Assembly (NCBI RefSeq): GCF_900243075.1
Contig: NZ_OEZH01000074.1
Span: 1-57,380 of the forward strand
From: Clostridioides difficile
GTDB lineage: Bacteria; Bacillota; Clostridia; Peptostreptococcales; Peptostreptococcaceae
Direction of reading: 5' to 3'
DNA: 57,380 nucleotides
The notes under the pieces were generated by a model, which was not told the DNA's origin, searched no databases, and worked only from the letters and a program-made list of their open reading frames with translations. The position numbers and the translations under genes are program-made. Every line of letters starts with the position of its first letter. Position 1 is the first letter of the stretch. Below, piece after piece: positions 3,690 through 40,034 of this stretch.

Positions 3690-4592
3690 ATGAGAAGTTT
3701 TGAAGAAGTAATTAAGTTTGCAAAAGAAAGAGGTCCTAAAACTATATCAGTAGCATGTTGTCAAGATAAAGAAGTTTTAATGGCAGTTGAAATGGCTAGA
3801 AAAGAAAAAATAGCAAATGCTATTTTAGTAGGTGATATAGAAAAGACTAAAGAAATTGCAAAAAGCATAGACATGGATATCGAAAATTATGAACTGATAG
3901 ATATAAAAGATTTAGCAGAGGCATCTCTAAAATCTGTTGAATTAGTTTCACAAGGAAAAGCCGACATGGTAATGAAAGGCTTAGTAGACACATCAATAAT
4001 ACTAAAAGCAGTTTTAAACAAAGAAGTAGGTCTTAGAACTGGAAATGTATTAAGTCATGTAGCAGTATTTGATGTAGAGGGATATGACAGATTATTTTTC
4101 GTAACTGACGCAGCTATGAACTTAGCTCCTGATACAAATACTAAAAAGCAAATCATAGAAAATGCTTGCACAGTAGCACATTCATTAGATATAAAAGAAC
4201 CAAAAGTTGCTGCAATATGCGCAAAAGAAAAAGTAAATCCAAAAATGAAAGATACAGTTGAAGCGAAAGAGTTAGAAGAAATGTATGAAAGAGGAGAAAT
4301 CAAAGGTTGTATGGTTGGTGGACCTTTTGCAATTGATAATGCAGTGTCTTTAGAAGCTGCTAAACATAAAGGTATAAATCATCCTGTAGCAGGAAGAGCT
4401 GATATATTGTTAGCTCCAGATATAGAAGGTGGTAATATATTATATAAAGCTTTGGTATTCTTCTCAAAATCAAAAAATGCAGGAGTTATAGTTGGGGCTA
4501 AAGCGCCAATAATATTAACTTCTAGAGCAGACAGTGAAGAAACTAAACTTAACTCAATAGCTTTAGGTGTTTTAATGGCAGCGAAGGCTTAA
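3690..4592 (+). CDS. ptb: phosphate butyryltransferase (Ptb family)
   Basis: Converts butyryl-CoA or branched acyl-CoA plus phosphate to acyl phosphate and CoA. The 300-residue product is full length for the PTA/PTB family, with the typical central GKADMVMKGLVDTS and C-terminal GGNILYKALVFFSKSKNAG segments. The ATG at 3690 is preferred because GAGGTGG lies 6 bases upstream; the frame stays open to 3639, but that upstream ATG has no ribosome binding site. buk follows after 21 bases. Because 2-oxoacid:ferredoxin oxidoreductase genes lie in the same run, the likely substrates are acyl-CoAs from valine, leucine, isoleucine or related oxoacids as well as butyryl-CoA. Substrate choice is inferred from context. 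Confidence 0.9.
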   Translation: MRSFEEVIKFAKERGPKTISVACCQDKEVLMAVEMARKEKIANAILVGDIEKTKEIAKSIDMDIENYELIDIKDLAEASLKSVELVSQGKADMVMKGLVDTSIILKAVLNKEVGLRTGNVLSHVAVFDVEGYDRLFFVTDAAMNLAPDTNTKKQIIENACTVAHSLDIKEPKVAAICAKEKVNPKMKDTVEAKELEEMYERGEIKGCMVGGPFAIDNAVSLEAAKHKGINHPVAGRADILLAPDIEGGNILYKALVFFSKSKNAGVIVGAKAPIILTSRADSEETKLNSIALGVLMAAKA

Positions 4593-27546: not shown

Positions 27547-28329
27547 ATGAAAATATGCAATGATAACTTTATTAAGAGTTTTAAAAATATGATTAATAAA
27601 TGTCTGGATTTTATATATCCTGAGAATATAAGTTGCATAATTTGTGATAAATCTATAAAGAAAACAAATACTTATTCAATATGTAAAAGCTGTTTTAAAG
27701 AGATGAATTTTATACAGGATGGTTGCATGAAGTGTGGAAAGCCAATAATACGTCATTCAATTGAAAAAGAGTTTGTTGAAGAGTGTAGCTATTGTTTTAA
27801 TAAAGATTTTTATTTTGACAAATCAATATCCTGCATTGAATACAATGATGTAACTAAAAAGATAGTATTAGGGCTAAAGTATAATCAAAAAACATTTATG
27901 GCTAAATATATAGCTCAGATAATGAAAGAAAAATTGTATTTAGAAAATATAAAATTTGATTATATATTATTTGTTCCACTTCATAAAAAAAGGCTAAATA
28001 AAAGAGGCTTTAATCAGGCACAAAAAATAGCATTTAATTTAAGTAAAATGGTAAATATTCCATTATTGGATTGTATAAGTAGAAAAAAATATACAAGAAT
28101 GTTATATAAATTAAACAAGAAGGAACGAAAAGAAGAACTAAAAAATGTATTTGTCGTTAAAGAAAATATCAAATTAATAAATAATAAAAATATACTTTTA
28201 ATAGATGATATATTTACTACTGGTTTGACAACAAATGAAATTTCTAAACTTTTAAAATTATCTGGTGTTAATAAGGTCTTTGTATTGACTTTACTCACAA
28301 AAGCAAATGATAATTATGTTATGGAATAA
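27547..28329 (+). CDS. comFC: ComFC-like phosphoribosyltransferase-domain protein
   Basis: A 260-residue protein with an N-terminal zinc-binding region containing four CxxC-type pairs (CIICDKS, CKSCF, CMKCGKP, CSYC) and a C-terminal phosphoribosyltransferase domain with the PRPP loop LLIDDIFTTGLTT. Segments KRGFNQAQKIAF and RKKYTRMLYKLNKKERKEEL are typical of ComFC, which helps DNA uptake in transformable relatives. It follows recD2 by 2 bases with no clear ribosome binding site of its own, so it is probably coupled. In clostridia comFC is often followed by the raiA RNA and hpf; here only the RNA follows directly. Confidence 0.85.
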   Translation: MKICNDNFIKSFKNMINKCLDFIYPENISCIICDKSIKKTNTYSICKSCFKEMNFIQDGCMKCGKPIIRHSIEKEFVEECSYCFNKDFYFDKSISCIEYNDVTKKIVLGLKYNQKTFMAKYIAQIMKEKLYLENIKFDYILFVPLHKKRLNKRGFNQAQKIAFNLSKMVNIPLLDCISRKKYTRMLYKLNKKERKEELKNVFVVKENIKLINNKNILLIDDIFTTGLTTNEISKLLKLSGVNKVFVLTLLTKANDNYVME

Positions 28330-28338
28330 TCTTATATA

Positions 28339-28367
28339 TTGACAATTTTAATTTAAAATATTAAAAT
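28339..28367 (+). promoter_or_regulatory. strong sigma-A promoter of the raiA-like RNA
   Basis: Perfect TTGACA (28339-28344), exactly 17 bases, and TAAAAT (28362-28367). It starts 10 bases after comFC ends, and the expected start (about 28374) falls at the base of the RNA's closing helix. One of the best promoters in the window. Confidence 0.8.
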
Positions 28368-28373
28368 GGATAA

Positions 28374-28632
28374 GTGATATTTAGGTCTGTGGTTGAAAGT
28401 CCAAGCCAGTCGCAGGCAAAGGGATCCACGTAAGTTAACACTAAAAATTGGGTTAATGATCATGGTGCGGCTTAGAAGTAAGACCTACCGATAATAAAAT
28501 CGAGAGAGAGTAGTAGTGCGGCGAACCCAAGCGAACCCTCCAGTAGGCGAGTGTGGGGTCAAAAACCAGGTCAGCTAAATATCATATTAAAAGAGAGCTA
28601 GCATAATACTTTTATGTGTAGCTCTTTTTTAT
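28374..28632 (+). ncRNA. structured non-coding RNA, probable raiA motif, with terminator
   Basis: About 250 bases with no open frame and unusually high GC (stretches such as GTGCGGCTTAGAAG and GTGCGGCGAACCC) in an AT-rich chromosome. The ends are closed by a perfect 10-bp helix, TGATATTTAG (28375-28384) with CTAAATATCA (28575-28584). A strong terminator follows at 28590-28632 (AAGAGAGCTA ... TAGCTCTTTTTT). It has its own promoter. Assignment to the raiA motif is based on size, layout and its place directly after comFC, where this RNA class is commonly found in clostridia upstream of hpf/raiA. I could not test the covariance model. It is not RNase P, tmRNA or SRP RNA by their signatures. Confidence 0.65.
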
Positions 28633-28672
28633 ATATAATAAATTCAGGTTGAGTCATAAAGAGGTGATATGT

Positions 28673-30577
28673 TTGAATAAAAGACAAGAAAATTTATTGA
28701 CAACATTGCTATTAAAAGAAGAATTTATAAATGTCAGTGAGATTGCTAATGATTTTGAATGTTCAGAAAGGACAATAAGAAATGATTGCAAATATATTGA
28801 TGAATGGTTATCCACTTTTTGTAATGCTTATATAAAAAGAAAACCTAATATAGGAATTAAATTTAGTGGAGATGGTACAGATAAGATACTGGTAAATCAG
28901 AAGTTACGAGGTGAAGTTAAAAGAGTAAATAGTGAGCTTCATAAGCAAGTTGAGATATTAAATTTATTGCTTTGTAACAATAAAAAAGTCACTTTGAATG
29001 ATTTATCTAATAAATTGTATATAAATAAAAATATTGTCAGAGAAGAAATAAGTAAATTATCAGTGGCATTAAATAATTATAACTTAAATGTCTCAACCAA
29101 AAAAGGTAGTGGTATATATATCGAAGGGGATGAGAAAGACATAAGAATAATGCTAGTATCATTCTTATTTAAATACATAGATAAATACAGGTTAAATATA
29201 GATGAAATAGAATATTTCCATATAGTAGATATAATAATTGTAAAAAACATAATGTCCACTATAGAGGATAATATGGATATAAGGCTTACAGATATATCAT
29301 TTAAGCAATTGATGTTATTTTTACTTATAAACATAATACGAATAAGGCTAGGAAATTCTTTAAAAATATCAAATGCAAAGAAAGAACTTAAGCTAAAAAT
29401 GCTTATCTTAGGTATAGAAGATGAGCTAAAATCTAATTTATCTATAGCATTAAATTATGAAGAAAAATTGTTTATAGAATCCCTAATATTTGGTATGAAT
29501 AAACAAATAAATAGTAGTAATACTAAAAAATCACTATATCTAAATGAAGAATTAGTAAATTATACAAAAAAAATTATAAATTTAGTATCAGAAGAATCAG
29601 GAATAAATTTCAATAATGATAGATTACTTTATGAGCAATTAATATGTCATTTGAATGTTACAATGCACCAAATGAAAAGTAATGTTTACTTAGAAAATCC
29701 ACTTTTAGATAATATAAAGACTAAATTTTGTTTTTTATTTACAGTAATATCAAGTTCAATAGAAATTGAATTAAAAGGAAAACAAATAACTGAAGATGAA
29801 ATCGGTTATCTTACACTTCACTTTCAAACCTCTCTGGAAAGAAAATACAATAAAAAGGAACCAGATAAAAAAGCAAGTATTGTATGTCCATTTAGTTTTG
29901 GAGTAAGTATGTTATTAAAAGTAAAGATAGAAAAGAGATTTGATAACATAGAAATTGTTGAAACATTAAGAGAGGAAGATTTAAAAAGAGATAACTTTAA
30001 TAAGACAATAGATTTTATAATTGCATTTCAAGAGTATGAGAATATTCAAAAGCCAATTTTTATAACAACACCATTATTTACTGATGAGGATGAAAACAAA
30101 CTCAAAGAGTTTACAAACAAAATAAAAGAAAAAGATACTTCATATAAGCTTATGAACAGATTAATGATGTCTGATTATTTAATAAGGGAGTTAGAGCATG
30201 ATGATATTTATGAAGCTATAACATATTTAACTAATTTATTAATTGAAAAACATTATGCAGAAAAAGAGTATTTACAATCTATTATAACAAGAGAAAAGTC
30301 ATACCCAACCAATGTTGGGAAAGGAATATTATTCCCTCATGGAGATATGAAATATATAAAGCAATCTGTTCTATGTTTTGCAAGGTTAAAAACACCAATA
30401 AAAATTAGAAATGGAAAGGATATAAAAATTATACTTTTATTAGCTTATAAAAAGGATGATGATAGAAAAGTATTTAGAGAATTATTTAAAGAAATATCTA
30501 ATTTAACAGAAGATGAAAATATGCTAGATATTCTAAGTAAATGTGATATTGAAAAAGTAAAAGATATTCTTATATAA
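28673..30577 (+). CDS. PRD-containing PTS transcriptional activator (BglG/MtlR/LicR family)
   Basis: A 634-residue regulator. Order: N-terminal winged HTH (about 1-65, SEIANDFECSERTIRNDCKYI), two PTS regulation domains (about 180-400), an EIIB-like domain with Cys in IVCPFSFGVSML, and a C-terminal fructose-type EIIA domain with its phosphorylatable His in GILFPHGDM. Start is TTG with GAGGTG 6 bases upstream; an earlier TTG at 28649 lies before that element. It is followed by a terminator and then by the PTS genes it most likely activates. Phosphorylation by the PTS at PRD and EIIA histidines would report substrate supply. Confidence 0.88.
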   Translation: MNKRQENLLTTLLLKEEFINVSEIANDFECSERTIRNDCKYIDEWLSTFCNAYIKRKPNIGIKFSGDGTDKILVNQKLRGEVKRVNSELHKQVEILNLLLCNNKKVTLNDLSNKLYINKNIVREEISKLSVALNNYNLNVSTKKGSGIYIEGDEKDIRIMLVSFLFKYIDKYRLNIDEIEYFHIVDIIIVKNIMSTIEDNMDIRLTDISFKQLMLFLLINIIRIRLGNSLKISNAKKELKLKMLILGIEDELKSNLSIALNYEEKLFIESLIFGMNKQINSSNTKKSLYLNEELVNYTKKIINLVSEESGINFNNDRLLYEQLICHLNVTMHQMKSNVYLENPLLDNIKTKFCFLFTVISSSIEIELKGKQITEDEIGYLTLHFQTSLERKYNKKEPDKKASIVCPFSFGVSMLLKVKIEKRFDNIEIVETLREEDLKRDNFNKTIDFIIAFQEYENIQKPIFITTPLFTDEDENKLKEFTNKIKEKDTSYKLMNRLMMSDYLIRELEHDDIYEAITYLTNLLIEKHYAEKEYLQSIITREKSYPTNVGKGILFPHGDMKYIKQSVLCFARLKTPIKIRNGKDIKIILLLAYKKDDDRKVFRELFKEISNLTEDENMLDILSKCDIEKVKDILI

Positions 30578-30717: not shown

Positions 30718-31026
30718 ATGGAAGAAATAGTTTTAAAAATTATAATTCATGCTGGTAATGCAAAATCTATGCTTTATGAAGCACTTGACTATGCAAAGGA
30801 AAACGATTTTAAAAAAGCGGATGAATTAATAGAAAGTGCGAATGAAGAAATCTTAAAAGCACATAAAGTACAAACTGAACTTATACAAAGGGAAGCTGGA
30901 GGAGATAAGTCAGATATATCTATCTTATTGATTCACTCTCAAGACCATTTAATGACTTGCATGAGTGAGAGAAATCTTATAAAAGAAATGATTATATTAA
31001 GAAAAGAAATTCAAAAATTAAAATAA
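30718..31026 (+). CDS. PTS system, lactose/cellobiose-type IIA component
   Basis: A 102-residue all-helical IIA protein. The phosphorylated histidine is His73 in LLIHSQDHLMT, the family signature. It takes phosphate from HPr and passes it to IIB. TAGGAGGA precedes the ATG by 6 bases. It is the first gene of an operon continuing through IIB, IIC, a GrdB-like protein, glycosylasparaginase, an M20 peptidase and CutC. Family knowledge points to beta-linked di- or amino-sugar substrates. Confidence 0.93.
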   Translation: MEEIVLKIIIHAGNAKSMLYEALDYAKENDFKKADELIESANEEILKAHKVQTELIQREAGGDKSDISILLIHSQDHLMTCMSERNLIKEMIILRKEIQKLK

Positions 31027-31050
31027 AAAAATTAAGGGGGATTTAAAAGA

Positions 31051-31377
31051 ATGAAAAGAAAAGTATATTTATTTTGTAGCTTTGGGATGTCAACAAGTTT
31101 ACTTGCAGAGAAAATGCAAAAGGTAGCAGATGAACACAATTTACCAATAGAAGTAGAGGCATTTCCAATAGCAGAGATTGATAAAATAGTAGGAGAAAAA
31201 AATCCAGATTGTATATTATTAGGACCACAAGTTAAATACATGCTAAAGGAATTAAAACCAAAGTTTGAAGCTCAAGGTAAACTTATAGACATAATCAATG
31301 AAGTTGATTATGGAACTATGAATGGGGAAAAAGTACTAAAGCTCGCTATAAAGCTAATAAAATCTAAACAAGCATAG
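31051..31377 (+). CDS. PTS system, lactose/cellobiose-type IIB component
   Basis: A 108-residue cytoplasmic IIB protein with the active cysteine at Cys9 in LFCSFGMSTSLLAEKM. It receives phosphate from IIA and passes it to the sugar held by IIC. AAGGGGGA precedes the ATG. Lies between IIA and IIC with short gaps. Confidence 0.93.
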   Translation: MKRKVYLFCSFGMSTSLLAEKMQKVADEHNLPIEVEAFPIAEIDKIVGEKNPDCILLGPQVKYMLKELKPKFEAQGKLIDIINEVDYGTMNGEKVLKLAIKLIKSKQA

Positions 31378-31415
31378 AATTACAATAAAAAATAATGAGA
31401 AATGAGGGTGGATAG

Positions 31416-32750
31416 ATGAATAGATTGGAAAGAATACTTATGCCATTGGCTGAAAAAATAGGTAAAAACAAGTTATTAATTGCAATTAGAGATGGTTTTT
31501 TAATATCATCACCATTATTAATAATAGGTTCATTATTTTTATTAGTATCAAATTTCCCAATAAAAGGATGGAATGAATTTGTAGGTCAAATTTTTGGTCC
31601 AGATTGGGCTGTAAAATTGCAACAACCAACTGTAGCAACATTTGAAGTAATGACATTACTAGCAGTTTTAGGGATTGGATATTCTTATGCAAAGCAAATA
31701 GATGTAGACCCAATAGCATCAGCAGCAGTTGCAATAGTTGCTTTTTTTATAGTAACACCATTTGTAATACCATATACACCAGAGGGAACAGAATCAGTCT
31801 ACATGGTAACAGGTATACCACTAGGATGGATGGGTTCTAAGGGAATGTTTGTAGGTATGATAACAGCAATAACTTCTGTAAAATTATTTGCTGCAGTTGT
31901 AAAAAAAGGATGGACATTGAAAATGCCAGATGGAGTTCCTCCAACTGTATCAAAATCATTTGCAGCATTAATACCAAGTGCAATAGTTATGATAGTTTTC
32001 TTTTTAGTTAAGATAGCTTTTGAAGCTACACCATATGGAAGCATACATGAATTTATATTTAAATTTTTACAAATACCATTATTAAAATTAGGAAATACTT
32101 TAAGTGCTACAGCAATCGCTTATGTATTCTTACATCTATTCTGGTTCTTTGGAATAAATGGAAGTAGTGTTGTTGGGGCTGTGTATAATCCTATATTAAA
32201 AATTCTATCAGCTGAAAATTTAGCTGCTTTTCAAGCTGGTACAAAACTACCAAACATAATAACTGCTCAATTTCAAGACATGTTTGCAACATTTGGTGGA
32301 GCAGGTAGTACATTATCATTAATTATAGCTATGTTATTAATATGTAAAAGTAAACGTATAAAGTCAATAGGAAAATTATCAATTTTACCAGGAATATTTG
32401 GTATAAATGAGCCATTGATATTTGGTCTACCAATAATGCTTAATCCAATACTATTGATACCATTTGCACTAGTTCCAACAGTAAATATAATAATAGCTTA
32501 TTTCTGTATGTCAACAGGATTAGTGCCACTTACAAATGGAGTTCAGTTACCGTGGACAACTCCAATTATATTCTCTGGTTTTCTAACAACAGGATGGCAA
32601 GGTGCAATTTTACAAGTAGTACTTCTTATACTAGGAATATTTATGTATATACCATTTATAAAAATGCTAGACAAACAATATTTGAAAGACGAAAAATCAA
32701 ATGTTGAAGAGGAAGATGATGATATATCTTTTGATGATTTAGTATTATAG
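31416..32750 (+). CDS. PTS system, cellobiose-type IIC permease
   Basis: A 444-residue membrane permease with about ten helices, of the ChbC/CelB type. Typical segments include the N-terminal IRDGFLISSPLLIIGSLF, the LFWFFGINGSSVVGAVYNP loop and GIFGINEPLIFGLPIMLNP, which lie near the sugar-binding pocket. GAGGGTGG precedes the ATG. Relatives carry chitobiose, cellobiose or lichenan fragments; with the downstream glycosylasparaginase, an N-acetylglucosaminyl compound is the likely substrate (inference). Confidence 0.92.
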   Translation: MNRLERILMPLAEKIGKNKLLIAIRDGFLISSPLLIIGSLFLLVSNFPIKGWNEFVGQIFGPDWAVKLQQPTVATFEVMTLLAVLGIGYSYAKQIDVDPIASAAVAIVAFFIVTPFVIPYTPEGTESVYMVTGIPLGWMGSKGMFVGMITAITSVKLFAAVVKKGWTLKMPDGVPPTVSKSFAALIPSAIVMIVFFLVKIAFEATPYGSIHEFIFKFLQIPLLKLGNTLSATAIAYVFLHLFWFFGINGSSVVGAVYNPILKILSAENLAAFQAGTKLPNIITAQFQDMFATFGGAGSTLSLIIAMLLICKSKRIKSIGKLSILPGIFGINEPLIFGLPIMLNPILLIPFALVPTVNIIIAYFCMSTGLVPLTNGVQLPWTTPIIFSGFLTTGWQGAILQVVLLILGIFMYIPFIKMLDKQYLKDEKSNVEEEDDDISFDDLVL

Positions 32751-32760
32751 GAGGAAGATT

Positions 32761-33279
32761 ATGAAGAAAATAGTTATGATATTGGACCAAATACAAGCTG
32801 GAGCTGGAGGAAAAGAGAAAAGTAATATACCTCCTGCTGGAAAATCAAGCCCATTAGGACCAGGTATAATGATGGAACCATTTTTAAATGAATCTAAGGT
32901 AATAGCTACATTGTTTTGTGGAGATGAATTTTTTGTAAATAACGAAGAAGAAGTAACAAACAAGATGATAGCTATGGTAAAAAAATTAAACCCTGATGTA
33001 GTAATTTGTGGGCCAAGTTTTAATTATGAAAACTTTTCTAAGATGTCGGCAATACTATCTAGAAACATAAATGATAAGACTGATATACCAGCTTTTGCAG
33101 CTATGTCAGAAGAAAATGTAGATGTTATAAACGAATATAAAAACGATATATGTATAGTTAAGACTCCAAAAAAAGGCGGAATTGGGCTTAACGATTCATT
33201 AAATAACATATGTAAGTTAGCGAAAGCAATGGCAAATGAAGAAGATATAATTATGATGAAAGAAGAATTTTGTTATTAA
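32761..33279 (+). CDS. GrdB-like protein, half-length, without selenocysteine region
   Basis: A 172-residue protein that resembles the N-terminal half of GrdB-type subunits of glycine/sarcosine/betaine reductase. Matching features are the PAGKSSPLGPGIMMEP stretch, VIATLFCGDEFFVNNEEE, the PDVVICGPSFNYENFS segment and TDIPAFAAMSEEN. GrdB is about 430 residues with an in-frame TGA (Sec) in its second half; here a TAA stop ends the gene and no Sec part follows. AGGAGGA precedes the ATG. Placed between the permease and glycosylasparaginase, it is probably a dedicated pathway component, not a decayed reductase: the frame is intact and the start signals are strong. Function unknown. Confidence 0.7.
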   Translation: MKKIVMILDQIQAGAGGKEKSNIPPAGKSSPLGPGIMMEPFLNESKVIATLFCGDEFFVNNEEEVTNKMIAMVKKLNPDVVICGPSFNYENFSKMSAILSRNINDKTDIPAFAAMSEENVDVINEYKNDICIVKTPKKGGIGLNDSLNNICKLAKAMANEEDIIMMKEEFCY

Positions 33280-33372
33280 TTAAAGTATCAATAATTAACA
33301 AGTTTGAATATTATACTATTTACAATAAACATACATTAGTAGAATCTATATAATAAGGAGGGGAATTTTAAC

Positions 33373-34332
33373 ATGTGGGGTATGATAGCGACATGGAGAA
33401 TGGCCCTAGAAGGGATAACTGAGGCATCAGAACATTTAGAAAAAGGCATGGAAGCAGGTGATGCTGTAGAGCTTGCTGTAAGAAGAGTTGAAGATTATCC
33501 ATTCTATAAATCGGTTGGATATGGTGGACTTCCAAATGAAAACTGTGAGGTAGAACTTGATGCTGCATTTATGGATGGTAACACATTAGATATTGGAGCG
33601 GTTGCAGGTATAAGAGATTATTCTAATCCTGTCAGCATAGCTAGGAAGTTAAGCTATGAGAAGGTAAATAATTTCTTAGTTGGAATAGGTGCTGAAGAAT
33701 ATGCTCATAAAAATGGATTTGAAAGAAAAAATATGTTGACTGATAGAGCAAAGTTACATTATAAGAAGAGAAAAAAAGAAACCTTAGATAAGGGATTAAG
33801 TCCATATGCTGGTCATGATACTGTGGGTATGATATCTTTAGATAAAAATGGAAAGATGTGTGCAGCTACATCAACAAGTGGATTGTTCATGAAGAAAAGA
33901 GGTAGAATAGGAGATTCTGCACTATCTGGTTCGGGATTTTTTGTTGATAGTAGTGTAGGAGGAGCTACAGCTACTGGTCTGGGAGAAGATTTGATGAAGG
34001 GATGTATATCTTATGAGATAGTTAGACTTATGAAAGAAGGAAAACATCCACAAGAAGCGTGTGATATAGCAGTAAATGAACTTGACAAACAGCTTATCAA
34101 AAGAAGAGGAAAAGCTGGTGATTTATCATTAGTTGCCATGAATAATAAAGGTGAATGGGGAGTAGCTACAAATATAGCGGATTTTACTTTTTCAGTAGTA
34201 ACTAAAGAGGAACCCCCTACTGTATATATTTCAAATAGAGTAGATGGAAAGACTATACATAAGGTTATATCAAATGAGTGGATGGAAGCATATGAAGCTA
34301 GAATAAAAGCACCAATAGAAGTAAGTGAATAA
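33373..34332 (+). CDS. N4-(beta-N-acetylglucosaminyl)-L-asparaginase (glycosylasparaginase)
   Basis: Ntn-hydrolase that splits the GlcNAc-Asn bond to aspartate and an aminosugar. The 319-residue precursor should cleave itself before Thr150 in GHDTVGMISLD, exposing the catalytic threonine. DSALSGSGFFVDSSVGGATATGLGED contains the substrate-binding part of the beta chain. No signal peptide, so it acts in the cytoplasm, as does the Flavobacterium/human fold family core. AGGAGGG lies upstream of the ATG, and 93 non-coding bases separate it from the GrdB-like gene. With a phosphotransferase system upstream, the substrate may be a phosphorylated GlcNAc-Asn; that point is inference. Confidence 0.9.
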   Translation: MWGMIATWRMALEGITEASEHLEKGMEAGDAVELAVRRVEDYPFYKSVGYGGLPNENCEVELDAAFMDGNTLDIGAVAGIRDYSNPVSIARKLSYEKVNNFLVGIGAEEYAHKNGFERKNMLTDRAKLHYKKRKKETLDKGLSPYAGHDTVGMISLDKNGKMCAATSTSGLFMKKRGRIGDSALSGSGFFVDSSVGGATATGLGEDLMKGCISYEIVRLMKEGKHPQEACDIAVNELDKQLIKRRGKAGDLSLVAMNNKGEWGVATNIADFTFSVVTKEEPPTVYISNRVDGKTIHKVISNEWMEAYEARIKAPIEVSE

Positions 34333-34377
34333 AGTAGCTACATAATAAAGTAGAGTTTTTATAATAAGGAGATTTTT

Positions 34378-35430
34378 ATGAATATCATAAGTAATAAAAT
34401 AGATGAATTAAAAGAAGATTTATTAAGTGATATTATAGATATTGTAAAAATACCTAGTGTTAAAGGGGAGTCAGAAAATGGCTTCCCTTTTGGCGAAAAA
34501 GTAGGGGAAGCACTTAATAAAGCATTAGAAATTTCAGAAAAATTGGGATTTAAGATTAGAAATTTAGATAATTATATTGGTTATGCAGAATATGGAGATA
34601 GCGAAGAATATGTCTGTGTAATTGGGCATGTAGATGTTGTACATGAAGGAGAAGGTTGGAAGTATCAGCCTTATGAAGGAAAAGAAATTAAAGGAAGAAT
34701 TTATGGCAGGGGAGTATTAGATAATAAAGGTCCTATAATGTCTGCTTTATATGGATTATATGCTATTAAAGAATTAAACCTAAAATTAGATAAAAAAATT
34801 AGGATAATATTTGGTACAAATGAAGAAAGTGGATTTGAAGATATACCATATTACTTGAAAAAAGAAAAAGCACCTATTATGGGATTTACACCAGATTGTA
34901 AGTATCCTGTTGTGTATGGTGAAAAAGGTATGGCTAAGATTAGAATCAAAAGTGAAAACAATTATGAAGAAGATACATTCTTAGGTTTTATAGAAAGTAT
35001 GTCTGAAAATGTGCTTGTTACATATAAAGAGCTACATAAAGAAAATAGTAATATTATATTGGATATAAAGGTAAAATACGATTTTAGTTATAAGCTAAAA
35101 GATGTGTTAGATGAGATAAAATGTAGTTTTCCAAGTAGTATTGAGATAGAGGTAATCTCTAATTTTAATCCTGTATACTTTGATAAAGAAAGTAAGCTTA
35201 TTAAAAAACTTCAGCTAGCTTATGAAAGGATAACATCATTAGATGGAACTCCAGTAACGACTAATGGAGGGACATATGCAAAAGTAATGCCAAATATAGT
35301 TCCATTTGGGCCTTCATTTCCAGGGCAAAAAGGAATAGCTCATAATCCTGATGAATACATGGACATAGAAGATATAATATTAAATGCAAAGATATTTGCA
35401 AATGCAATATATGAATTGGCAAAGGAGTAG
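34378..35430 (+). CDS. M20-family dipeptidase (PepV/carnosinase-like)
   Basis: A 350-residue di-zinc peptidase. Metal ligands are visible: His84 and Asp86 in IGHVDVVHEG, Asp in GRGVLDNKGP, the catalytic Glu pair in TNEESGFED, and the last His in GIAHNPDEYMD. PepV-type proteins are usually about 470 residues, so this is a shorter member with a compact lid domain. AAGGAG precedes the ATG. In this operon it would free amino acids from short glycopeptides or dipeptides after or before the glycosylasparaginase step. Confidence 0.85.
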   Translation: MNIISNKIDELKEDLLSDIIDIVKIPSVKGESENGFPFGEKVGEALNKALEISEKLGFKIRNLDNYIGYAEYGDSEEYVCVIGHVDVVHEGEGWKYQPYEGKEIKGRIYGRGVLDNKGPIMSALYGLYAIKELNLKLDKKIRIIFGTNEESGFEDIPYYLKKEKAPIMGFTPDCKYPVVYGEKGMAKIRIKSENNYEEDTFLGFIESMSENVLVTYKELHKENSNIILDIKVKYDFSYKLKDVLDEIKCSFPSSIEIEVISNFNPVYFDKESKLIKKLQLAYERITSLDGTPVTTNGGTYAKVMPNIVPFGPSFPGQKGIAHNPDEYMDIEDIILNAKIFANAIYELAKE

Positions 35431-35432
35431 TT

Positions 35433-36107
35433 ATGTTAGAGATAATAGGAATGACAGTAGAAGATGCTAAAATTATAGAAGATTGTGGTGCAGATAGAAT
35501 AGAGTTAGTTAGTGCCTTAACTGAAGGTGGGTTGACACCAAGTTTTGGTCTTATAGAAAGAGTTGTTAACAGTGTAAAGATACCTGTGAACGTAATGGTA
35601 AGACATCATGCGAAAAGTTTTGTATATAGCAAAGAAGATATAAGTATAATGCAAAAAGATATAAGCGTAATTAAAGAGATTGGTGCTAATGGAGTTGTGT
35701 TTGGGGTATTGGATAAAAACAACAATATAGATGAGAAAAATCTAAATATTTTATTGAAATGTTGTGATAATCTTGATGTTACATTTCATAGAGCTATAGA
35801 CGAATCAAATACAATGGATAGTGTTAAAACTTTGAAGGATTATGATAAAATTACAAACATACTAACGTCAGGGGGTAAAGGAAGTATAGTTGATAACATA
35901 CAGATAATAAAGAATATGATGCTTAGTTCTAATCACATAAAAATTCTTTTAGGTGGAGGACTTAATTTTAATAATATAGAAAGAATAAAGGAATCAACTA
36001 AAGCAAGTAATTTTCACTTTGGTACAGCTATTAGAATAAATAACAGTCCTTTTGAAGATATAGATAGACAAAAGCTTAAACAGCTCGTAAATATAATTTC
36101 AAGATAG
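35433..36107 (+). CDS. cutC: CutC-family TIM-barrel protein
   Basis: A 224-residue protein of the CutC ("copper homeostasis") family: LEIIGMTVEDAKIIEDCGADRIELVSALTEGGLTPS at the N-terminus is diagnostic, and VMVRHHAKSF and VTFHRAID follow in the barrel. The family's copper role is doubtful, and CutC genes often lie near glycoside or sugar-acid catabolism. It begins 2 bases after the M20 gene with AAGGAG upstream, as last gene of the PTS operon. No clear terminator follows. An enzymatic role in sugar breakdown is the more natural reading of this context. Confidence 0.88.
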   Translation: MLEIIGMTVEDAKIIEDCGADRIELVSALTEGGLTPSFGLIERVVNSVKIPVNVMVRHHAKSFVYSKEDISIMQKDISVIKEIGANGVVFGVLDKNNNIDEKNLNILLKCCDNLDVTFHRAIDESNTMDSVKTLKDYDKITNILTSGGKGSIVDNIQIIKNMMLSSNHIKILLGGGLNFNNIERIKESTKASNFHFGTAIRINNSPFEDIDRQKLKQLVNIISR

Positions 36108-36660
36108 TTATAGATAAAAATATAAAATACTTAGTTTAAATAAAGAGTGTGAGTTAATTATAATTTGGGTATATGAATGTTAATAGGTATCAAATATGAA
36201 ATTATTGTTGAGGATGCTTTATCACTTTTGGATAGTATTAAATATAAATAATGAAAGAAAAGATAGAATATGGAGGTTTTAGAGGGTTTATATTTATAAA
36301 AAATTTATAAAAGTTAAATGGCATATAATACATATAATTTCCTAAAATTACCAACTTATGACATGAATTCACATATTAATAAACAATTAATGGAGATTTT
36401 TGTGGATAGAAATGGATATAAGTAGTAGTAAAAATAGCTTTAAATAAACAAAAACAAGAGTTATTAACAATTTTATCCACATTATCCACAGGTATTTGTA
36501 ATAATATTAATCCACATGAGTATTAAGATAACTAAAAATAATAAATAATTCTATCAATTGAATAGAAAAAATCATAAAAGTCAATAATAAAAAGAGGATT
36601 ATGAGAGTTCGTGTAGAATATATTATTTAAAGTATAAATTTTCTTATACTGGCATAATTG
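36108..36660. other. intergenic region upstream of hpf containing a DnaA-box cluster
   Basis: About 550 bases with no gene. The notable content is a group of DnaA-box-like 9-mers between 36401 and 36516; the rest is AT-rich without a frame that I can support. Confidence 0.6.
36401..36516. promoter_or_regulatory. DnaA-box cluster
   Basis: Two perfect consensus boxes TTATCCACA sit head to tail without spacing at 36473-36481 and 36482-36490. One-mismatch boxes lie at 36508-36516 (TAATCCACA, same strand) and 36401-36409 (TGTGGATAG, opposite strand). No dnaA or dnaN gene is nearby, so it is not oriC. It may titrate DnaA or let DnaA regulate hpf. Confidence 0.6.
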
Positions 36661-36675
36661 AAGGGAGATGTACTT

Positions 36676-37227
36676 ATGAACATAATTATATCTGGAAAAC
36701 AAATCGAATTAACTGATGCAATAAAAAATAAAATCGAAAGCAAACTAAGTAAGTTAGATAATTACATTCATCCAGACACTGATGTAAAAGTTACAGTAAG
36801 TGCTAGAAAAGCAAGACAAAAAATAGAAGTAACAATAGCTACTGTAAATGGACCTATAATTAGAGCAGAAGATATGCAGGAAAATTTATACACAGCTATA
36901 GATGTGGTATACGATAAATTAAGTAAACAATTAAAAAAATATAAAAAGAGATTACAAGATAAACATAAAGATAACAAGAGTATAAGATTCCAAGATGCAG
37001 AGATAAATCTAGCTGATGAACAAGAGGATTATGGAGATGAAAATCAAGAGTTAGTAATTCAAAGACGTAAAAAATTTAGTGTTAAGCCAATGAGTGAAGA
37101 AGAAGCTGTATTACAGATGGAGTTAATAGGACATGATTTTTATATGTTCAAGAACATAGATTCAGATGAAATAGCAGTAGTTTATAAGCGTCATAATGGT
37201 GGATATGGTATAATAGAACATGAATAA
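36676..37227 (+). CDS. hpf: long-form ribosome hibernation promoting factor HPF (RaiA/YvyD)
   Basis: Binds the small subunit and dimerises 70S ribosomes to inactive 100S particles in stationary phase or stress. The 183-residue product has the N-terminal S30AE domain (about 1-100, MNIIISGKQIELTDAIKNKIESKLSKL) and the C-terminal dimerisation domain (about 125-180, RRKKFSVKPMSEEEAVLQMELIGHDFYMFKN), so it is the long form. ATG at 36676 is chosen because AAGGGAG lies 8 bases upstream; the TTG at 36658 precedes that element. secA follows, the common clostridial order. Confidence 0.95.
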   Translation: MNIIISGKQIELTDAIKNKIESKLSKLDNYIHPDTDVKVTVSARKARQKIEVTIATVNGPIIRAEDMQENLYTAIDVVYDKLSKQLKKYKKRLQDKHKDNKSIRFQDAEINLADEQEDYGDENQELVIQRRKKFSVKPMSEEEAVLQMELIGHDFYMFKNIDSDEIAVVYKRHNGGYGIIEHE

Positions 37228-37358: not shown

Positions 37359-40034
37359 ATGAGCTTTATGGATAATTTATTCAACATGGCAGATAAAAAA
37401 GAATTAAAAAAGTTCAATAAAACTGTTGATATAATAGATTCATTAGAACCTAAGTTTGAATCTATGGCAGACTTGGAACTTAAAAATATGACAAATATAT
37501 TTAAAGAGAGATTAGCAAATGGTGAAAGTATAGATGATATACTTCCAGAAGCTTTTGCAGTAGTTAGAGAAGTTTCTAAGAGAGTGTTAGGACTTAGACA
37601 CTACAGAGTTCAAATGATTGGAGGTATAGTTCTACATCAAGGAAGAATAGCAGAAATGAAAACAGGTGAAGGCAAAACTTTGGTTGCAACTGCCCCTGTT
37701 TATTTGAATGCGCTTACTGGAAAAGGGGTACATGTTGTAACAGTAAATGATTACCTTGCAAAACGTGATAGAGACCAAATGGCAAAAATCTATGAGTTTT
37801 TAGGAATGAGTGTAGGTGTTATTATACATGGTCAAAATCCAAAAGTTAGAAAAGAGCAATATGATTGTGATATAACTTATGGTACAAATAATGAGTATGG
37901 ATTTGACTACTTAAAGGACAATATGGTAATACACAAAGAGCAAAGAGTTCAAAGAGGATTAAATTATGCTATAGTGGATGAGGTTGACTCTATACTAATA
38001 GATGAGGCTAGAACACCACTTATAATATCTGGACCTGGAGACAAATCAACTCACTTATATTCAGATGCAAATACATTTGTTTTAACTTTAAAACCAGATG
38101 ATTATGAATTAGAAGAAAAAGATAAGGCTGTATCTCTAACAGCGTCAGGTATACAAAAAGCAGAAGTATATTTTAATGTTGATAATATAACAGATATATC
38201 TCATACAGAATTATATCATCATATAAATCAAGCTTTAAGAGCACATGTAATAATGAAGAAAGATGTTGATTATGTTGCTAAAGATGGAGAAATAGTAATA
38301 GTAGATGAATTCACAGGTAGACTTATGTTTGGTAGAAGATATTCAGAAGGTTTACATCAAGCAATAGAAGCTAAAGAAGGTCTTAAAATACAAAGAGAGT
38401 CCAAAACATTAGCTACTGTAACATTCCAAAATTACTTTAGAATGTACAAAAAACTTTCTGGTATGACTGGTACAGCAAAAACAGAAGAAGAAGAATTTAA
38501 AGCAATCTATAAAATGGATGTTTTCCAAGTGCCTACTAATAAACTTATGGTAAGAGAAGATTTACCAGATTGTGTATACAAAAGTGAAGCAGGTAAGTTT
38601 AATGCTGTAGCTCAAGAAATAATTGAAAGACATAAGGTTAATCAACCAATACTTGTAGGTACAGTATCAATAGAAAAGTCAGAGTTATTGTCACAAATAC
38701 TAAAGAAAAAAGGTATTAAACATGAAGTATTAAACGCTAAACATCATGATAAAGAGGCAGAAATAATAGCACAAGCTGGTAGACTTGGAGCTGTTACAAT
38801 AGCCACTAATATGGCTGGCCGTGGTACCGATATAGTTCTAGGTGGGAACCCAGATTTCTTAACTAAGAGAGAAATGAGAAGAAATGGATTTAAAGAGGAA
38901 ATAGTAAATAGGGTAGATACTCCAATAGAAGGAATACCTGTAAAAGGAAATGAGATTCTATTTGAAGCTAGAGCAGAGTATGAAAAACTATTTGAAAAGT
39001 TTAAGCAACAAACACAAGAAGAACAAAAACAAGTTATAGAAGCAGGTGGACTTGCTATAATTGGTACAGAAAGACACGAATCTCGAAGAATAGATAACCA
39101 GTTGAGAGGTCGTGCTGGTCGTCAAGGTGACCCGGGTAGTTCAAGATTTTATATAGGTCTTGATGATGACCTTATGAGATTGTTTGGAAGTGATAGAATA
39201 TCTGGAATCGTAGATAAAATCGGTCTTGAAGAAGATATGCCTATAGAACATAGAATATTGTCTAAATCTATTGAAGGAGCACAAAAGAAAGTCGAAGGTA
39301 AAAACTTTGGAATAAGAAAGCATGTACTTCAATACGATGATGTTATGAATAAACAAAGAGAAATAATATATGCAGAGAGAAAGCGTGTACTAGAAGGTGA
39401 AGATTTACAAGAACAAGTACAATCAATGACTCATTCTATAATAGAAGAAGCGGTTACTCTTTATACGCAAGATAAAGGATTTGATGAAGAAGGATTTAAA
39501 GAACATATGTATAATCTGTTCTTACCAAAAGGTAGTATAGAAATCCCAGAAATAGAAAAACTTAATCCAGTTGAAATAACAGAAAAAGTTTATGAAATAG
39601 CTATGAAGATATATACTTCAAAAGAAGAACAAGTTGGATATGAGAGAATGAGAGAGGTTGAGAGAGTAATCTTACTTCAAGCTGTTGATAACCATTGGAT
39701 AGACCATATAGATGCTATGGACCAATTACGTCAAGGTATAGGTCTTCGTGCTGTAGGTCAACAAGACCCAGTTATTGCCTATAAAATGGAAGGTTTCGAC
39801 ATGTTTGATGAAATGAATAAACATATCAAGGAAGATACTGTAAGATATTTATTTAATATAACAATAGAAACTCCAGTGGAAAGAAAAGCAGTTGTAGATG
39901 TTGAAAATCTATCTTCTCCATCAGATGGAACACTTCCAACAAGTAAAACAGTTAAAAAAGATGAAAAAGTTGGAAGAAATGACTTATGCCCTTGTGGAAG
40001 TGGTAAGAAATATAAAAACTGTTGTGGAAGATAA
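37359..40034 (+). CDS. secA: preprotein translocase ATPase SecA
   Basis: Motor ATPase that drives unfolded preproteins through SecYEG. The 891-residue protein has the full SecA layout: Walker A in [11 protein letters not shown] near residues 102-112, [12 protein letters not shown] as motif II, the preprotein cross-linking domain, motif [18 protein letters not shown], the helical scaffold and a C-terminal SEC-C zinc motif [13 protein letters not shown]. The zinc motif and length mark it as housekeeping SecA1, not an accessory SecA2. An extended -10 (TGGTAAAAT, 37311-37319) lies upstream. prfB starts 14 bases after the stop. Confidence 0.97.

Follow-up and report, generated by a model that had tools for sequence, protein, structure and literature searches.

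The window analysed here, a stretch of 57,380 nt of Clostridioides difficile DNA, carries a GC-rich unit directly after comFC, in a position where related RNAs are commonly followed by hpf. In the window, an island of catabolic genes lies between the two, which raises the question of whether the unit is an independent transcript or the leader of a neighbouring gene, and of how it came to be parted from hpf.

The unit was matched by the Rfam model RF03072 (raiA) at positions 28376-28583 of the plus strand, with 184.3 bits (E 4.8e-47; model 1-209, all 209 positions) against a gathering cut-off of 101.3 bits, and its copy number in the genome is one, no second RF03072 match being found. The covariance search thus upheld the original prediction of a raiA-type RNA after comFC (27547..28329, +; identified by Pfam DZR_2 and Pribosyltran plus position), and the feature is the modT gene of C. 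difficile, that is, the gene of the ModT (raiA-motif) RNA. Its long form spans 28375..28634 (+) around the Rfam core, the exact ends being estimates. A SigA-type promoter was recognized at 28339..28367 (+), where TTGACA-17-TAAAAT agrees with 11 of 12 consensus positions. A single match of this kind proves little, since promoter-like sites were not enriched in the surrounding 10 kb (65, versus a shuffle mean of 71.4, sd 6.7), and conservation was therefore tested. A promoter with 10-12 of 12 positions was found in the 60 bases 5′ of the RNA in 64/65 loci of the family, versus 72 of 1300 shuffled stretches reaching 10 or more, and the –10 box ended 6-11 nt before the RNA in 64/65, with the RNA itself 79-100% identical to the window copy among the 65 loci. 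The predicted fold (z –3.0) closes with a helix of 10 pairs from 28375, and the long form ends in an intrinsic terminator hairpin with T-run at 28588..28631 (+; –19.8 kcal/mol, z –6.3), which was revealed by folding and was not listed by a simple terminator scan. With a G+C content of 0.46 versus 0.29 for the window, the GC-rich unit with near-consensus promoter, 10-bp closing helix and strong terminator proved to be as it had been described. As separate observations, the raiA RNA of one relative (L108, G031) fell short of the cut-off at 95.8 bits, has a Mutator transposase immediately 3′ of it and is perhaps a decaying copy; and in 18/18 genomes with both genes on one contig, raiA lies ~105-302 kb from dnaA, on either arm, and is transcribed away from the origin (computed by hand, circular contigs assumed).

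The RNA and its unusual PTS neighbour in C. difficile are already known from PMC11706538 and PMC11477304. In the portion of PMC11706538 devoted to ModT, the RNA was characterized as abundant and trans-acting, with a SigA promoter, one start site and isoforms of ~215 and ~260 nt. It was demonstrated there that modT deletion raises c-di-GMP and harms sporulation, and that complementation of modT works in trans. The same portion records that in C. difficile a PTS antiterminator gene takes the place of raiA 3′ of ModT, and that 74% of raiA RNAs have comFC 5′ and 66% a raiA/hpf gene 3′, which makes the context common, not obligatory; a passage of PMC11477304 gives the same PTS neighbour and names the upstream gene ComFC-like. 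According to that portion of PMC11706538, ModT is also an exponential-phase RNA, which declines in stationary phase if no sugar is supplied, and ModT(L) is retained on glucose or fructose. For this reason, stationary-phase RNA-seq, initially proposed as a check for a discrete transcript, is not the best test. A portion of PMC11751092 presents the cryo-EM structure of the raiA RNA of Clostridium acetobutylicum, a tertiary fold with pseudoknots pk-1 and pk-2. The raiA RNA is among the most abundant and least understood RNAs of clostridia. A knockout of it in Clostridium acetobutylicum was reportedly described by Soares in 2024. Among the matches listed in a search for ModT literature from 2025 on, none contained the word ModT.

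On the 3′ side of the RNA, the first gene of the island (28673..30577, +) encodes a PRD/Mga-type PTS operon regulator by its Pfam domains (PRD, Mga and PTS_EIIA_2), with a predicted start codon inside the longest frame, which opens at 28649. The remainder of the island (30718..36107, +) encodes, also by Pfam, PTS IIA, IIB and IIC, a GrdB-like protein, asparaginase-2, an M20 peptidase and CutC. The GrdB-like product (frame 32761-33279, 172 aa) matches only the first half of its Pfam model. At ~8.3 kb from the RNA begins hpf, the raiA protein gene (36676..37227, +; PF02482 at 36682-36957, start codon predicted, longest frame from 36658), followed by secA (37359-40034, +) and prfB (from 40137, +). 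The resumption of hpf-secA-prfB at 36.7 kb had been correctly called, and so had the presence and PTS content of the catabolic island; its length is ~7.5 kb and not the 8 kb first given.

With a terminator between the RNA and an operon on the same strand, it could be asked whether the RNA is a cis leader or riboswitch of the PTS operon, in which a ligand decides between termination and read-through into the PRD regulator. Rfam types RF03072 as cis-regulatory/riboswitch, which favours such a leader, as does the persistence of ModT(L) on glucose or fructose in the ModT results of PMC11706538; in one of its passages, one review also groups the RNA with the following operon CD0134-8. However, what follows the RNA and its similar promoter differs among relatives (hpf, secA, a ribose-type operon, ThiC, or transposase, pyruvate-formate-lyase-like or MATE genes, some of them on the opposite strand), the PTS operon was seen at the raiA locus only in Clostridioides, and complementation in trans is in print (PMC11706538, ModT portion), which together make a PTS leader very improbable. 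Comparison of these loci demonstrates that the predicted promoter and the RNA persist in relatives whatever lies 3′, and this varying 3′ gene, together with the published action in trans, speaks indirectly against the cis control of an adjoining gene that characterizes a riboswitch.

The origin of the present arrangement was addressed in 71 genomes of the family, 65 of which carry the raiA RNA (8 Clostridioides, including that of the window, and 57 others); raiA searches that spanned more than 40 genomes were run with stricter filters. On 64 stretches round raiA plus the window, 16 window proteins were placed. Island genes were found at the raiA locus in 8/8 Clostridioides (split over two contigs in G006) versus seen in 0/57 others, a comparison that covers the raiA locus only; in 4/57 (G059, G048, G068 and G024) the contig ends before hpf, too early to show absence. 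Among the 65 RNA-bearing genomes, hpf was in view in 51 and started less than 1.4 kb from the RNA in 35 of these, 29 of which have comFC directly 5′ of the RNA. Otherwise, the distance was ~8.3 kb in 7 Clostridioides and 2.0-12.3 kb in 9 further genomes, while the remaining 14 comprise 9 g13 genomes, in which secA and not hpf comes next, and 5 in which the contig ended first. In the nine other long-interval genomes, no match to the island proteins of the window was found. Instead, all four g5 genomes (L077, L084, L088 and L090) carry a second sugar island in this interval, a ribose-type operon with further genes between raiA and hpf, the operon being named by recognition of translations with one LacI-type regulator confirmed by Pfam, and the inserts in one genome each were a pyruvate-formate-lyase-like gene, ThiC, an integrase-type transposase, a Mutator transposase and a MATE gene. 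Several long intervals holding different genes indicate that other genes came in after the RNA on several occasions, of which the Clostridioides island seems to be one.

An insertion scar or compositional mark was also sought as evidence for the island and was rejected: direct repeats between the two island junctions did not exceed chance (longest shared k-mer 9, shuffle mean 9.5), and the G+C of the island (0.289) gave no sign of foreign base composition versus the flank (0.293). Insertion and its polarity therefore rest on the comparison with relatives. The alternative history, in which hpf-secA-prfB moved away from comFC-raiA, would likewise part RNA and hpf, and the neighbourhood is rearranged in several relatives; yet the window order, metK-recD2-comFC-raiA, then the island, then hpf-secA-prfB, keeps the order and strand of island-less relatives, so that simple insertion needs one step, and relocation of hpf has only a slight chance of being the correct account. 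From these comparisons, the PTS/asparaginase/peptidase/CutC island very probably parted the RNA from hpf by insertion in Clostridioides, which agrees with the original prediction.

A second natural separation was found in genus g13, where the raiA RNA is kept in 9/9 genomes (L071, L086, L092, L093, L096, L099, L102, L106 and L107) and is followed 0.4-2.8 kb further by secA, hpf being absent from the interval; three of these promoters, examined singly, scored 11/12. Some hpf is present in 71/71 family genomes, and two are present in the genome of the window (PF02482). A midpoint-rooted tree of 67 Hpf pieces, in which the g13 branch is long, placed the 8 g13 proteins included (of 9) with that Hpf of the window genome which is encoded away from raiA (support 100/97), so that the linked hpf appears to have been lost while the RNA stayed. 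Conversely, no RNA match was obtained in six family genomes. In the four of these where comFC was found, recD2-comFC is kept, and hpf is either 30-44 kb away or on a different contig; their Hpf falls with the linked-type copies of other genera.

Taken together, the best explanation, which we consider almost certainly correct, is that modT is a self-contained transcription unit and that the island is an ancestral insertion. On this account, modT would have its own SigA promoter and intrinsic terminator and produce a structured raiA-motif RNA, and in the ancestor of Clostridioides the island would have entered between the RNA terminator and the control region of hpf (the DnaA-box triad and SigH promoter considered below), leaving both units, RNA and hpf, intact. 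The independence claimed at the outset is thus supported by the conserved promoter, the own terminator, retention of the RNA in all nine g13 genomes that have no linked hpf and the published trans-complementation. The natural separations, by the Clostridioides island and in g13, are evolutionary arguments against an hpf leader and agree with that complementation. Most likely, the RNA functions through its fold, binding a protein or ligand and relaying growth status; action as a base-pairing sRNA, an hpf leader or a PTS leader is less likely. The published 66% linkage to the hpf/raiA gene hints at a shared selective reason, which independence leaves unexplained.

Ahead of hpf, a predicted DnaA-box triad, TTATTAACA-3nt-TTATCCACA-TTATCCACA, lies at 36461..36490 (+), called by the box consensus with 0 mismatches to the triad pattern (boxes at 0, +12 and +21). 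The box starts are 12 and 9 nt apart, with two perfect boxes abutting at 36473 and 36482 and TTATTAACA placed 12 nt before them; the consensus scan also gave two DnaA-box-like 9-mers nearby, CTATCCACA (36401..36409, –) and TAATCCACA (36508..36516, +). When the family loci were scanned at up to 3 mismatches, the triad stood in the raiA-hpf interval, in the orientation of both, in 50/51 genomes with hpf in view, the miss being G018; it was absent from 9/9 g13 loci (best 6-7 mismatches), and none occurred in those 9 genomes. Scanning whole genomes at up to 2 mismatches recovered it in 57/71 family genomes, versus 0 in 71 for a backward-pattern control, and as the only match in the 4.2-Mb genome of the window. 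At 15 hpf loci away from raiA and secA, the 450 nt upstream held no perfect box and 0 (11 loci), 1 (3 loci) or 2 (1 locus) one-mismatch boxes; a sixteenth control locus (L120, G017), beside secA and with ~213 nt of upstream DNA and no box, was left out. As a side observation, a zinc-ribbon-like protein of ~90 aa, named by recognition, is encoded just 5′ of the triad in several loci of the class (L170, L171, L172, L174, L178, L179, L183 and L185).

The class-wide scan gave 88 triads, in 76/196 genomes, versus 3 in 2 genomes for the backward control. At least 28/196 genomes have the triad less than 1 kb upstream of hpf and on its strand, at least 13 with raiA and at least 15 without; at least 9 further triads adjoin ABC-transporter-like genes (named by recognition of translations), and 51/88 are unplaced. 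Such genes stand between the triad and a same-strand hpf in G112, G168, G073, G192, G107 and G163, and between the triad and an hpf on the other strand in G089, while in G140 and G106 these genes or their start come after the triad and hpf is on another contig. Among class genomes with raiA, the triad was present in 19/35 and absent in 16/35, including 3/3 of the nearest family, f2; in G142 and G216 it lies hundreds of kb from raiA, and two genomes with no raiA (G035 and G036) have a one-mismatch triad (L186 6471, L187 6781) that precedes hpf by ~9 kb and is not close to any other gene of the window. Three simple rules were accordingly rejected: a strict tie to hpf, given the ABC-transporter-like genes intervening in several class genomes; a tie to raiA, given that at least 15 of at least 28 class genomes with the triad less than 1 kb upstream of hpf show no raiA match; and presence wherever raiA is, given its absence in g13 (9/9) and in 16/35 raiA-bearing class genomes. 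The pattern also matches the dnaA-dnaN side of dnaA in G026 (C1:1469; the dnaA domain ends at 1257). Two other sites of the window genome hold two close perfect boxes in the same orientation (gene names by recognition of translations), one between spoIIE-like and pepF-like genes (G000:C147:66121-66151; L132 ~4122-4152) and one ~500 nt past the 3′ end of nrdDG-like genes (G000:C149; L133 ~221-304).

The triad ends 104 nt upstream of a SigH promoter of hpf (36595..36620, +), which shares 38/39 letters with the CD0142 SigH promoter in Table 3 of PMC7438776, only the last letter differing; the expression given there in the sigH mutant is 0.14. By position and by these letters, CD0142 is hpf. Among named records, Hpf proteins 97-98% identical to that of the window come from C. 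difficile, which points to C. difficile or a close sister as the source of the window. That hpf has a SigH-like promoter throughout the family was rejected, since the strict pattern was found at 22/51 triad loci (shuffles 1.3%) and 29/51 were without it. According to a portion of PMC7561715, a DnaA-box cluster consists of at least three boxes with a mean distance below 100 bp, a definition that covers the triad; the DnaA-trio of an origin, counted as at least three trios within 35 nt after the triad, was seen in 3/51 loci, and the triad thus does not resemble a replication origin.

It could be argued that the triad arose by chance in AT-rich DNA or serves another regulator. The region is AT-rich and the boxes are predicted by consensus only, the DnaA-trio of oriC2 is lacking at all but the 3/51 loci just mentioned, 51/88 class matches fall outside those placed near hpf or ABC genes, and 16/35 raiA-bearing class genomes are without the triad. 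These points are countered by the fixed spacing in 50/51, by the backward control (0 in 71 family genomes; 3 versus 88 in 196 class genomes), by the 15 hpf loci away from raiA/secA with no perfect box in 450 nt upstream and by the match beside dnaA in G026, which render coincidence or a different regulator unlikely. Our own reading, that of an old, position-bound predicted DnaA assembly site before hpf in many Clostridia, often just after the raiA RNA, is put forward tentatively and may well prove wrong. DnaA bound there would tie initiation to SigH-driven hpf or buffer free DnaA, and the locus would join ModT RNA, DnaA and SigH as controls of growth transition. As part of the same tentative reading, other genes could have entered beside the predicted site, between RNA and site in Clostridioides and between site and hpf (ABC transporter) in other families, and left it intact. 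Control of the hpf promoter and DnaA titration are both candidates for what the triad may do. If it binds DnaA, chromosome replication would be directly linked to ribosome hibernation as cells enter stationary phase. No literature joining the DnaA box with hibernation promoting factor or ribosome hibernation was found, in a search whose coverage left subscription papers mostly outside, and among the matches listed for DnaA boxes, Clostridium, hpf and secA, none contained both DnaA boxes and hpf.

Among known systems, a portion of PMC5295017 reports that the DnaA-box clusters of B. subtilis outside oriC jointly restrain initiation, and these clusters, as well as E. coli datA, share with the triad several DnaA boxes outside oriC. 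The fixed 12/9 spacing before hpf is what distinguishes the predicted triad from both. The neighbours of the B. subtilis clusters are not known to include hpf. In C. difficile oriC2, as treated in a portion of PMC7561715, boxes likewise stand in close tandem, and the 12/9 spacing before a trio run was found in 6/18 family oriC2 stretches, with weaker boxes, whereas the hpf triad has near-perfect boxes and mostly no DnaA-trio (3/51); identity of the triad with oriC2 was rejected. As for the RNA, that of C. acetobutylicum belongs to the same family by name, with the long isoform unreported in the portion of PMC11751092 concerned, unlike ModT. ModT of C. difficile 630 (CDIF630nc_001), as presented in the ModT portion of PMC11706538, shares with the window RNA the family, SigA promoter, terminator, expected isoform lengths and downstream PTS antiterminator gene, and no difference of substance was seen. 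In that source, the portion covering the ModT results and early discussion contains no family-wide insertion history; this history across the family is an addition of the present analysis, as is the conserved predicted DnaA-box triad before hpf, which was less expected than the RNA.
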